From Nitrosopumilaceae archaeon AB1(1) (GTDB lineage Archaea; Thermoproteota; Nitrososphaeria; Nitrososphaerales; Nitrosopumilaceae): a stretch of DNA of 34,477 nucleotides. Position 1 is the stretch's first letter. Each line of letters opens with the position of its first letter. This document shows positions 10,318-24,544 of the stretch, piece by piece. Position numbers and translations under genes: made by a program. The notes beneath the pieces are model-generated. The model did not search any database, had not been told where the DNA came from, and worked only from the letters and a program-made list of their open reading frames with translations. The stretch is from NCBI GenBank assembly GCA_033471095.1, contig CP136752.1:1135497-1169973 (forward strand), read 5' to 3'.

Positions 10318-11136
10318 TTGAATCTACTATTCTCTGGGAAAGTCAAGGATGTCTATTCTTATGATGATGAGCACCTATTATTTAGATTCAGTGACAGGAT
10401 ATCTGCATTTGACGTTTCATTTAACGATGTTATTCCATTAAAGGGTAAAACACTGTGTGATTTTGCTGAATTTTGGTTTAAGAAATTAAACACAGATTCA
10501 CATTTTGTCAAACGTGTTGCAGATTGTGATATTTTGGTGAAAAAACTAAAGATGATACCAATGGAATGTGTTGTTCGTGGATACTATTATGGTAGTCTGA
10601 TAGATTGACATAAAACTGGCAATGTAATTTTGGACGGAAATTTACAAATGGCATCACAATTATCTACTCCTCTCTTTGATCCTACAACTAAAACAAAACA
10701 TGATAAACCAGTTGATCGTACCCAAGCCATACAACTAGGTTTGGTAACAACTGATCAATTTGATTTTCTAAAAGATAAATCAATTCAATTATACAAAATG
10801 ATGAGTATGGTGTCACAGCAGGCCGGATTTATTTTAGCAGATTTAAAATTGGAATTCGGTATTCTTGATGATAATATTATTCTTGGTGATTCAATAGGTC
10901 CGGATGAATATAGAATGTGGCCAATAGACTCGTACGCTGTGGGAAAAGTTCAGACTGCATTTGACAAGCAAATTTTACGTGATTGGCTTGAACAAAATGG
11001 CCACAAGCAACAATTCGAAGAGTCTAGAGAGAATAATGATACCCCGATTCCACCTTTAATCCCACATGATATAATCAGTCAAATCACTACTCGCTACTGT
11101 GAATCCTTTGCGAGGATATCGAAATTAGGCGTATAA
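10318..11136 (+). CDS. purC: SAICAR synthetase PurC, interrupted by one in-frame TGA
   Basis: TTG start at 10318 (MNLLFSGKVKDVYSYDDEHL), the usual beginning of archaeal PurC. ATG at 10314 is out of frame and closes quickly. The enzyme joins aspartate to CAIR in purine synthesis. Motifs: FRFSDRISAFDV, MECVVRGYYYGSLID, then TGA at 10606-10608 (codon 97), then in the same frame HKTGNVILDG, STPLFDPTTKTKHDKPV, ADLKLEFGI and LGDSIGPDEYRMWP. Both halves are fully conserved and stay in frame, giving 272 codon positions, the expected length. The TGA falls in the variable stretch after the YGSL motif where a charged residue is common. As separate pieces neither half could fold. A TTAAAT box at 10287-10292 is a fair promoter candidate. 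Confidence 0.88.
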
Positions 11137-17556: not shown

Positions 17557-20500
17557 TTGAAGAGGATACTTGTACTTGGAAGTGGGGCAATAAAGATCGG
17601 AGAAGCCGGCGAAAGTCACAAAAATGACCGCTAATTTGACTACTCTGGTAGCCAATGCCTCAAGGCAATTCAAGAGGATGGCATAAAAAGCATTCTTGTT
17701 AATCCAAATATTGCAACAATTCAAACAGATACTCGCTTTGCAGACAAGGTCTATCTTTTACCTGTTCAACCGAATTTTGTCGAATCTGTAATAGAGTCTG
17801 AGCGCCCAGATGGCATAATGCTTGCGTATGGTGGACAGACTGCATTGAACTGTGGTGTAAAATTGGATGATAGTGGATTGTTGAAGAAATATGGCATAAA
17901 AGTTTTGGGAACACCAATTTCGGGAATTAAACAAACAGAAGACAGACAATTGTTCAAAGATTCTATGCAAAAGTGTGGTATATCAACTCTGCTAGGTAAA
18001 ACCATTCAAACGTTTGATGAGGCAAAACAGGCCGCACAAGATATTGGATATCCTGTAATCATTCGCGTGGCGTATACTCTGGGAGGTAAGGGTGGCGGTG
18101 TTGCACAAAACGAATTAGATCTATATGAGATTGTGACTCGTGGATTGAACGCTAGTATGGTAGGTCAGGTATTGGTTGAAAAATATGTTGGTCGATGGAA
18201 ACAGATAGAATATGAAGTGATACGTGATCACTCTGAGAATCAAGTAATTGTGTGTAACATGGAGAATGTTTTATCCATGCGTGTTCACACCGGTGATAAC
18301 ATTGTAGTTGCTCCGTCTCAAACTTTGAATAATTCTGAATATCACATGCTAAGAACAGCATCTTTGCACGCAACAAAGTACGTAGGTATTGTGGGGGAGT
18401 GTAATATTCAATTTGCGCTAAACCCTGAATCTTCCGAGTATGCGGCCATTGAAATTAATCCTAGATTATCACGCTCATCTGCTCTTGCAAGTAAGGCAAC
18501 AGGATATCCACTTGCTTACATGTCTGCAAAAATTGGACTAGGCTATGATTTATCAGAGTTGACAAATCGTATTACAAAGATAACAACAGCATGTTTTGAA
18601 CCATCTTTGGATTATATAGTGTGTAAACATCCGCGTTGGGATTTTGAGAAATTTGAATTAGCAAATAAAACACTGGGACCTACAATGAAATCCATCGGAG
18701 AAGTCATGGGTATCGGAAGAACGTTTGAAGAATCTTTGCAAAAAGCTATTAGAATGTTGGATAATAATCATAATGGTCTAGTGGGCGACCCATCCCACAA
18801 ATCACTTACTGAGGAGGAACTAGAAAACAAACTCTTGCAACCTGATGATTCCATCTTGTATCATGTAGCACATGCACTATACACTGGAATGTCTAAAGAG
18901 AAGATTCGGCAACTAACAATGATAAATCCTTGGTTTATTCATAAAATTAATAATATTGTAAATATGATGAAAAAACTCGATACTACTACTAATTACTCTT
19001 CATTATTACGTGAATCCAAACAATTAGGATTCTCAGATAAACAACTGGCAAATATTGTAAAAACAGATGAAGGTGAAATTCGTAAACAACGTAAACAACT
19101 AGGAATAACTCCTGTTGTAAAACAGATTGATACACTTGCTGCTGAATGGCCTGTGAAGACAAATTATCTCTATTTTACATATGGTGGTACTACTAATGAC
19201 ATTGAAGTTGATGACTCTAAAAGTATTATTGTTTTAGGTGCCGGTCCATATCGCATTGGAAGTAGTGTAGAGTTTGATTGGGGTACTGTCAATATGGTGT
19301 GGGGAATACAAAAAAACTCCGATTATACTATTTCTATTATTAATTGTAATCCAGAGACTGTGTCTACTGATTATGATATATGTGATTGATTATACTTTGA
19401 AGAGTTGACGTATGAGAGAATTTTAGACATTTGTGACTTTGAAAGACCGTCAGGAATTATAACTTGTGTGGGTGGGCAGACTGCAAATAATCTTATACCA
19501 AGACTTGATGCAAATCCAAACTCTCCAGTGCTTGGAACATTGCCGGCAAATATTGACAGGGCAGAGAATCGTTCTAAATTTAGTTCTGTTTTAGACAAAC
19601 TACACATAAAACAGCCCATCTGGGAAAAGTTTTCCAACCTTGAGAATGCCAGAGAGTTTGCACAAAATGTTGGTTATCCTGTGATTGTAAGACCATCCTA
19701 TGTTTTGAGTGGTGCGGCAATGAAGGTGGTATGGTCAAAAGAAGAGATGCGCTCCTTTGTTAGAGGTGCAACTAATTTATCATCTGATCACCCTGTGGTT
19801 ATCTCAAAGTTTATGCTCAATTCTCTTGAAGCTGATGTTGATGGTGTATGTGATGGTAGTAATGTTGTAATTGGAGCAATAATTGAACACATTGAAAGTG
19901 CAGGTATTCACTCTGGTGATGCAATAATGTGTATTCCACCACGTCGTCTTAGTACTCATATTATTGAAAAGATAACAGACTATGCCAAACAAATTGCACT
20001 AGAGTTTAAAATAATTGGTCCCTTTAATCTACAATTTCTAATTCATGATGGGCACGTCTATGTGATTGAATTGAATATACGAGCATCACGCTCTATGCCA
20101 TTTGTATCTAAATTTGTTGGCATAAATTTGATTGATCTTGCATCACGTGCTATTCTTGGAAATAAACTTCCCGCAATAGATGATAATTCGTGGCAAAAGA
20201 TAACACAGTATGGTGTCAAAACCCCACAGTTCTCCTTTATGCAACTAGACGGTGCTGATATTGTACTTGGAGTAGAGATGCAATCTACTGGAGAGTCTGC
20301 ATGTTTTGGAGATAGCTTTTATGATGCTCTCTCAAAGAGTTTGACATCTGTTGGTAATACATTACCCTCATCTGGCTCTGCACTAATCACTATTGGTGGC
20401 ATGGATAACAAAGAAAAACTATATCCTACAATTATTCTACTGCACAAGTTGGGCTTTAAGATATTTGCAACGGAGCATACTGCAGAATTTTTATCACAAA

Positions 20501-23394: not shown

Positions 23395-23601
23395 TTGTCA
23401 TCTGAAGAATCTGAGGTTCAAGAAGTAGAAGAGGTTAAAGAAGAACCACCACGATATGAAGCTCAATACTCTTGTCTTCGTTGTGGTACAAATGTCTCAA
23501 ATGTAGAACTTGAGCGTCTACCTGAGATAAAATGTATTTGTGGTTTTCGCATATTTACCAAACTTCGCTCAGAGGGTATAAAGCGAATAAAAGCAATCTA
23601 G
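23395..23601 (+). CDS. rpo12: DNA-directed RNA polymerase subunit Rpo12 (RpoP)
   Basis: 68 residues from TTG 23395. An acidic N-terminal tail (SSEESEVQEVEEVKEE) precedes the zinc ribbon YSCLRCGTNVSNVELERLPE, with the second pair in KCICGFRIFTKLRSEG. This Cx2C...CxCG arrangement with an FRI(F/L)xKxR end is the signature of the Rpb12/RpoP subunit, which joins Rpo3 and Rpo10 in the assembly platform. The acidic tail is longer than in many archaea. An earlier TTG at 23371 would add eight residues; the TATA position excludes it. The stop overlaps the end of the convergent zinc-finger gene by four bases. Confidence 0.88.
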   Translation: MSSEESEVQEVEEVKEEPPRYEAQYSCLRCGTNVSNVELERLPEIKCICGFRIFTKLRSEGIKRIKAI

Positions 23602-23786
23602 ATTTTTGTATGAAATTTTTGCATATGTGTACGCATTTGCTCCATTCCTGAAAACTCTACACCACAAACGTTACAATCATACTTGTTATTTTTATAATGA
23701 ATAGTTAATTTATGGTGCATCACATCTTCTTCTTGTTTGAATTTTTCATTACACATATCACACTTGTGTCTCTTGAATATATTCAA
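23598..23786 (-). CDS. Two-finger C2H2 zinc-finger protein, 62 aa
   Basis: ATG at 23786, stop at 23598-23600. The protein is almost entirely two classical C2H2 fingers: CDMCNEKFKQEEDVMHHK with a following LTIH, and CNVCGVEFSGMEQMRTHM followed by QKFH, joined by a short basic linker. Such fingers bind DNA, RNA or protein; small one- or two-finger proteins are known in Nitrososphaerota but their roles are mostly untested. The gene starts two bases after the stop of the triple zinc-ribbon gene, so they are probably co-transcribed. It converges on rpo12 with a four-base overlap. Confidence 0.8.
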   Translation of the reverse strand: MNIFKRHKCDMCNEKFKQEEDVMHHKLTIHYKNNKYDCNVCGVEFSGMEQMRTHMQKFHTKI

Positions 23787-23788
23787 AA

Positions 23789-24199
23789 TTATTCATTCTC
23801 TGCTTTTTGCTCATCCCAACATTTTCTACACAACTGTCCTGTTACTTTCCATTTACTCTTTGGATTGTAACGAATAAATCCTAATTTTTCACCACAAACA
23901 CTGCAGAAATTTTTCTCAACCTTAAAAGTTTGCTCCTTTTCATCAAAACAAGTTTTACATAATAGCCCTTCCATGTCCCACTGCCATCGTGGCTCCCATA
24001 AATTCATAATTTTATCCTTCTTTTTACAAACAATACATTCTTGAATTGCCTTGGCCTCATGATGCTCCCTTGTCTTATCTAGATGACATTTTCCACATAG
24101 ACGACCCTCGATTCCCCATTCGCGTTTAGGTTTATGTCTGTGGGTCAAACGTACATTACATACAGTACAAAATAACGGCTTTCTAGAAAATAGATTCAT
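23789..24199 (-). CDS. Triple zinc-ribbon repeat protein, 136 aa
   Basis: ATG at 24199, TAA at 23789-23791, with a TATA-like box 25.5 bp upstream. The sequence consists of three repeats of about 40 residues. Each has CxxC, a basic or aromatic stretch with Trp, then G-x-LC-x2-C: FCTVCNVRL with WGIEGRLCGKC; CIVCKKKDK with WDMEGLLCKTC; FCSVCGEKL with WKVTGQLCRKC. Twelve cysteines should bind three zinc ions. The conserved W-x3-G-x-L-C word is diagnostic of internal duplication. No known family is recalled for this triple form. Charge and zinc ribbons suggest nucleic-acid binding; this is inference. Confidence 0.75.
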   Translation of the reverse strand: MNLFSRKPLFCTVCNVRLTHRHKPKREWGIEGRLCGKCHLDKTREHHEAKAIQECIVCKKKDKIMNLWEPRWQWDMEGLLCKTCFDEKEQTFKVEKNFCSVCGEKLGFIRYNPKSKWKVTGQLCRKCWDEQKAENE

Positions 24200-24220
24200 A
24201 ATGATTTTAGTGTGTCTAAT

Positions 24221-24228
24221 AATTTATC
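24221..24228 (-). promoter_or_regulatory. TATA box of the zinc-ribbon/C2H2 pair
   Basis: AATTTATC on the plus strand (GATAAATT on the coding strand) is centred 25.5 bp upstream of the ATG at 24199. Confidence 0.45.
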
Positions 24229-24240
24229 TTTACTGTATCT

Positions 24241-24384
24241 TTATTCTTCTCTCAATATTTTCTCTAGAGCTTGAGATGCATTTAACAAACCGTGTTGTTT
24301 AGCATACTCTTGTATCATTTCATATTGTTGTTTTGTAAAGCATACGGGGATGGATTTTCTCATGATATCATTAACATTAATCAT
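24241..24384 (-). CDS. Small ribbon-helix-helix-like protein, 47 aa
   Basis: ATG at 24384, TAA at 24241-24243, 47 residues: MINVNDIMRKSIPVCFTKQQ, then YEMIQEYAKQHGLLNASQAL and EKILREE. A short basic strand (RKSIPVCFT) followed by two helices, with ASQALEKIL in the second, is the pattern of CopG/Arc-type ribbon-helix-helix DNA-binding proteins, which pair as dimers. An internal ATG at 24363 (MRKSIPV) is the alternative start. It lies just upstream of the zinc-ribbon gene on the same strand. Likely a small transcription regulator; its target is unknown. Confidence 0.6.
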   Translation of the reverse strand: MINVNDIMRKSIPVCFTKQQYEMIQEYAKQHGLLNASQALEKILREE

Positions 24385-24544
24385 TTTAAAAACTTTGCTA
24401 GTTTGATGTCTATTAAGTTATATATGATTAGAGATAATGCGGTTGTTCTCTGAAATGTTGAAACTCTGCTGTCTTTTTTTTTATGTAATTCTCAAACCTT
24501 TACCTCTGATACATATTTTATCATTTAAAATAATTACACGAATA

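Follow-up and report, generated by a model that had tools for sequence, protein, structure and literature searches.

Among the zinc-finger micro-proteins of Haloferax, phenotypes were reported for 12 of 16 deletion mutants (PMC6562870). The zinc-finger protein AFV1p06 binds both zinc and DNA, and a 2013 paper reported no thaumarchaeal homologue of it (PMC3541406). We analysed a cluster of three small genes encoding a putative ribbon-helix-helix (RHH) protein, a protein with three cysteine-rich fingers (the triple-finger protein) and a two-finger C2H2 protein. It lies in a 34,477-nucleotide stretch of the Nitrosopumilaceae archaeon AB1(1) genome, which is referred to as a whole as the window. 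Literature searches of main texts found no paper on this cluster. We propose, with a probability of about 0.45, that it is a small lineage-specific regulatory, nucleic-acid-binding set with the RHH protein as its probable autoregulator. The features, with the evidence for each, are as follows.

23395-23601, plus strand: rpo12 (RNA polymerase subunit P), convergent with the cluster (matches to PF03604 and NCBIfam subunit P that fall short of the cut-offs; start alignment)
23598-23786, minus strand: gene for a C2H2 protein of 62 aa with two fingers, starting at TTG (PF00096, conserved ligands, dN/dS)
23789-24199, minus strand: gene for the predicted triple treble-clef protein, 136 aa, pI 9.1, 12 Cys (alignment, AlphaFold2, dN/dS)
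24086-24169, minus strand: finger 1, C11-C38 (alignment)
23948-24037, minus strand: finger 2, C55-C84 (alignment)
23819-23905, minus strand: finger 3, C99-C127 (alignment; weak DUF4428 matches fall here in several members)
24216-24227, minus strand: TATA-like stretch ATAAATTATTAG ahead of the triple-finger gene (located by inspection of the sequence)
24241-24363, minus strand: putative RHH gene, 40 aa (alignment of 25 relatives, predicted fold, weak RHH_1 matches)
24384-24398, minus strand: candidate RHH core promoter GCAAAGTTTTTAAAA, where relatives carry AAARGATATTAG (upstream comparison)

An earlier note, made from the sequence of the window alone, had pointed to three tiny minus-strand ORFs in a row, the last two separated by two bases. 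All three are present at these positions, between rpo12 on one side and, on the other, a putative citrate synthase gene; two bases separate the stop codon of the triple-finger gene from the start of the C2H2 gene. All three are real genes under purifying selection in relatives: the median dN/dS was 0.106 for the triple-finger gene, 0.110 for the C2H2 gene and 0.075 for the RHH gene, compared with 0.159 for rpo12 and 0.052 for EF1A (pairs with dS 0.3-1.5), these values being descriptive because the sequence pairs are not independent. Loss of gene order was named in the same note as grounds for giving up its reading. The order RHH, triple-finger, C2H2, tail to tail with rpo12-S10-EF1A (S10 and EF1A scored where the contig reaches that far), is kept in 75 of 80 named relatives, mainly Nitrosopumilus, Nitrosarchaeum and other Nitrosopumilaceae. 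With gene order and coding constraint both kept, the cluster exceeds chance. A further C2H2-like match is found on the opposite strand, upstream of the RHH gene, in 28 of the named loci L071-L150.

Elsewhere in the window, in-frame TGA codons at 19387-19389 and 10606-10608 interrupt ORFs that, from their sequence motifs, we presume to be carB-like and purC-like, respectively. These codons may reflect sequencing error, decay or read-through. At about 17613-17634, the carB-like frame has SHKNDR and a stop codon within the motif IGEAGE/FDYSGSQ.

Linkage of the three genes varies in other families. In family f8, genome G452 keeps the triple-finger and C2H2 genes convergent with rpo12 and has the RHH gene about 2 kb away, while in G081 the cluster genes lie near each other in a different arrangement, surrounded by genes for an ammonium transporter, P-II and cation efflux (locus L031). 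In two other f8 genomes, G067 and G098, the RHH gene adjoins the C2H2 gene and is apart from the triple-finger gene. In f3 each of the three genes sits on a contig of its own, and the RHH and C2H2 genes are apart in f2. The C2H2 orthologue is missing from genera g5 and g15, and in L159 (g15) a short transposase-like ORF, named by eye, occupies its place. The strongest rival explanation is that these are separate genes with no common function, which remain neighbours because rearrangement beside a convergent, overlapping rpo12 is rarely tolerated. The unlinked genes of f3 and f2, the loss of the C2H2 gene alone in g5 and g15 and the separate upstream elements of the RHH and triple-finger genes all favour this explanation. 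It fits poorly with G067 and G098, where the RHH and C2H2 genes are paired at a distance from the triple-finger gene, and with the RHH gene staying upstream of the triple-finger gene across up to about 3.4 kb; on balance we consider it doubtful.

The 62-residue protein had been read as a two-finger C2H2 protein, and two complete fingers were found: it scores 33.8 bits with PF00096 (gathering score 25.2, E-value: 3.8e-8) over two stretches, and all eight zinc ligands are conserved among 23 aligned sequences. Its gene and rpo12 meet tail to tail, with stop codons on opposite strands at 23598-23601. The set thus adjoins rpo12 as had been proposed, by a 4-bp overlap of the stop codons rather than by simply ending against it. 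The rpo12 frame most likely starts at TTG 23395, judging from alignment with relatives, and would encode 68 aa. The acidic stretch noticed earlier in this protein exists; it is N-terminal and common to relatives rather than an extended tail.

The 136-residue protein contains three units of the form CxxC-x(~10)-P-[KR]-x2-W-x3-G-x-[LI]-C-x2-C. Their mutual similarity extends beyond the cysteines, as only 0, 0 and 1 of 1000 shuffles with the cysteines fixed reached the observed scores. Among 39 aligned relatives all 12 cysteines are invariant, and each finger has, besides its cysteines, strongly conserved W, P and G residues. The AlphaFold2 model (mean pLDDT 89.4, pTM 0.58) predicts three treble clefs, a fold made of a CxxC knuckle, a hairpin and a second CxxC at the N-terminus of a helix; in each finger of the model a helix (residues 36-50, 82-97 and 125-135) begins at the second CxxC. 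The earlier reading of three zinc ribbons is upheld for the repeated CxxC...W-x3-G-x-LC-x2-C pattern and revised for the fold, as the fingers are predicted to be treble clefs. In a tree of single fingers (40 columns only, with many unresolved forks), first fingers fall together, as do third fingers, and second fingers need two changes. Because this tree groups the fingers by position, the triplication most likely predates the split of f1, f3 and f8. Second, more divergent triple-finger copies (L037, L038, L040, L047 and L050) are found in genera g6 and g8, and L051 2031-2189 (G000:C1, about 874.6 kb) encodes a 52-aa single-finger relative, which in several relatives is close to an ORF of about 580 aa and one of 93 aa. 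No constant neighbour that would name a function was found for these extra copies and single-finger relatives.

The repeat could not be matched to a known family in the first reading, and in profile searches the triple-finger protein of the window likewise passes no Pfam or NCBIfam cut-off; DUF4428 (PF14471) is closest, with 11.1 bits against a gathering score of 27.8. The other ground named in the note for giving up its reading, a clear match to an unrelated known family, thus does not apply. Among the 39 members, 29 match DUF4428 at E ≤ 0.1 (best E-value: 1.5e-6), a single relative (L047, 28.4) exceeds its gathering score and 12 match Ribosomal_S14 weakly. The top PDB sequence matches were multihaem cytochromes, which share CxxC motifs, and assignment to a named family was rejected. 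A viral origin was also rejected: none of 28 pattern-matching viral stretches encodes a relative, and matches to PHROGs were weak only.

Foldseek searches of the PDB with the triple-finger model gave no match at E ≤ 0.001. The tandem fingers of LMO2/LIM proteins ranked first (E-value: 0.007, not significant), as might be expected of a LIM-like protein-protein adaptor, perhaps one attached to the ribosome, to RNA polymerase or to the membrane. DUF4428 is, moreover, one of two globular N-terminal domains in SNIPE homologues without a transmembrane segment (PMC13190303). Since the TM-scores are low (about 0.2) and the basic charge fits nucleic acid equally well, we think such an adaptor unlikely. 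Zinc or copper buffering by a cysteine-rich metal store is a good deal less probable. In its favour are the 12 cysteines of the protein, the cation-efflux gene close to the cluster in G081 and the Na/Ca exchanger gene that adjoins the triple-finger gene in G062. Against it, each finger is a cysteine tetrad with strongly conserved W, P and G in addition to the cysteines, and metal-transport neighbours vary among relatives.

The third protein had been described as a ribbon-helix-helix-like 47-mer. The class fits the evidence and the length is probably shorter: translation most likely starts at the ATG at 24363, giving 40 aa rather than the 47 aa counted from 24384, because relatives begin there and the ATG at 24384 falls in a TATA-like stretch. 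In the AlphaFold2 model (pLDDT 89), residues 1-10 are extended and residues 11-23 and 29-39 are helical, which is the strand-helix-helix order of a domain of about 40-50 aa; the model is of a single chain, and the RHH strand forms only in a dimer. High-ranking Foldseek matches are mostly RHH repressors (TM-scores 0.7-0.8), with E-values that do not reach significance for a chain of this length, and the model resembles CopG, Arc, NikR and MazE. Pfam RHH_1 (PF01402) matches weakly in five of 25 members (best E-value: 6.5e-4), the window protein not being listed among them. An alignment of the 25 relatives shows an invariant proline and an invariant cysteine in the strand. MazE and AtaR among the high-ranking structural matches raise the idea of an antitoxin from a toxin-antitoxin pair, which we regard as highly improbable, as the gene is single-copy in nearly all sampled AmoA-bearing genomes, no toxin-like neighbour was recognised and a 40-aa RHH protein has no C-terminal extension usable as a toxin-binding tail.

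Upstream of the RHH gene, 43 of 49 non-redundant relatives have their best match to AAARGATATTAG at -33/-34 relative to the ATG, and 39 of the 49 show at most two mismatches. This position would fit the BRE/TATA box of a leaderless transcript. Over 12 columns the element carries 14.2 bits, a descriptive value because the element was chosen by eye from the same sequences; ahead of the triple-finger gene, the highest-scoring 12 columns reach 3.1 bits. These results support a strong and conserved RHH core promoter in relatives, and its conservation suggests autoregulation, by analogy only. It may, however, be merely a strong promoter, because that of EF1A is similarly conserved (12.8 bits per 12 columns, n = 18 after redundancy removal). 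The region upstream of S10 was dropped as a promoter control, as it lies inside an operon and the neighbouring coding sequence is conserved. In the window the element (GCAAAGTTTTTAAAA) is degenerate relative to the AAARGATATTAG of relatives. No regulon was visible in a search of five genomes, because the exact 12-mer matched at most once per genome and its reversed control was at least as frequent. A TATA-like sequence occurs near a similar place upstream of the triple-finger gene in relatives, with weak conservation. The RHH gene seems to form one transcription unit, and the triple-finger and C2H2 genes together another.

In a set of 101 relatives, only families f1, f2, f3 and f8 carry AmoA (PF12942). 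The RHH gene has the same range, occurring in these four families and in none of the other 13 of the order, in one copy per genome except for two in a contaminated assembly; a few incomplete f1 assemblies are without it. In a draw of 300 genomes from the phylum, RHH matches occurred in f1, f2 and f8 only. Families f1, f2, f3 and f8 all have the C2H2 orthologue (E < 1e-18), and full triple-finger proteins are present in f1, f3 and f8; f2 has a single-finger relative only, and within f8, G067 has a single-finger match only and G098 a match over two of the three fingers. Among the lineages sampled, the gene families of the cluster mark the AmoA-bearing one. The RHH protein might be a regulator tied to the ammonia-oxidizing lifestyle (acting, for example, on amo, Amt or P-II genes) and might have the finger proteins as its partners; its gene does adjoin a P-II gene in G081 and G452, with an Amt or multicopper oxidase gene nearby. 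The shared distribution and the P-II neighbours are hints only, and we give this proposal little credence. The AmoA-bearing families are understood to form one clade, in which case a single gain explains the pattern; it thus shows no functional tie to ammonia oxidation. Lineage restriction alone is also unsurprising, as Abby et al. (PMC7554672) infer a gain of 289 gene families leading up to the last common ancestor of ammonia-oxidizing archaea.

In the regulatory set that we favour, the RHH protein would form a CopG/Arc-type dimer that contacts DNA through its N-terminal strand and would probably control its own promoter. The other transcription unit would supply a basic three-finger treble-clef protein and then the two-finger C2H2 protein, both of which would bind nucleic acid as accessory regulators or RNA-handling factors. 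The guess of a small regulatory or RNA-handling module in the earlier note is thus partly supported. The genes themselves, their order and coding constraint, the predicted RHH-like and treble-clef folds, the triplication within the 136-residue protein, the phyletic range and the conserved RHH core promoter of relatives come from the computations; joint action of the three proteins, their division into two transcription units, control of the RHH gene by its own product, binding of nucleic acid and loading with zinc are inferred. The regulatory reading draws on the order kept in 75 of 80 loci, the linkage in f8, the purifying selection, the RHH-like fold, the conserved RHH promoter, the pI of the triple-finger protein and the weak Ribosomal_S14 matches. 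It is weakened by the degenerate element in the window, the absence of a visible regulon, the missing C2H2 gene in g5 and g15 and the unlinked genes in f3 and f2. Treble clefs and C2H2 fingers bind proteins too, which counts against the nucleic-acid part of this reading. To our knowledge, gene regulation in ammonia-oxidizing archaea is little understood, and a single-copy RHH-like protein that marks the families bearing AmoA, together with the two finger proteins linked to it, provides a short, testable list of candidates.

Like CopG/Arc-type repressors, the RHH protein is about 40 aa long with a predicted strand-helix-helix fold and Foldseek matches to CopG, Arc and NikR, and in relatives it has a conserved element at its own promoter. 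It differs from them in that only five of 25 members match RHH_1, and weakly, in the invariant proline and cysteine of its strand and in being chromosomal and confined, in the genomes sampled, to AmoA-bearing families. The triple-finger units share the CxxC ... G-x-LC-x2-C layout of DUF4428 (PF14471), but there are three in tandem, and the window protein scores far short of the gathering threshold. Like HVO_0758 and the other zinc-finger micro-proteins of Haloferax, these are very small archaeal proteins predicted to carry zinc fingers (PMC6562870, PMC10716476); C(P)XCG motifs belong to the Haloferax proteins, the two groups being compared by description. Finally, AFV1p06, like the 62-residue protein, is an archaeal C2H2 zinc finger, but it is viral and uses glutamate as its fourth zinc ligand (PMC3541406).
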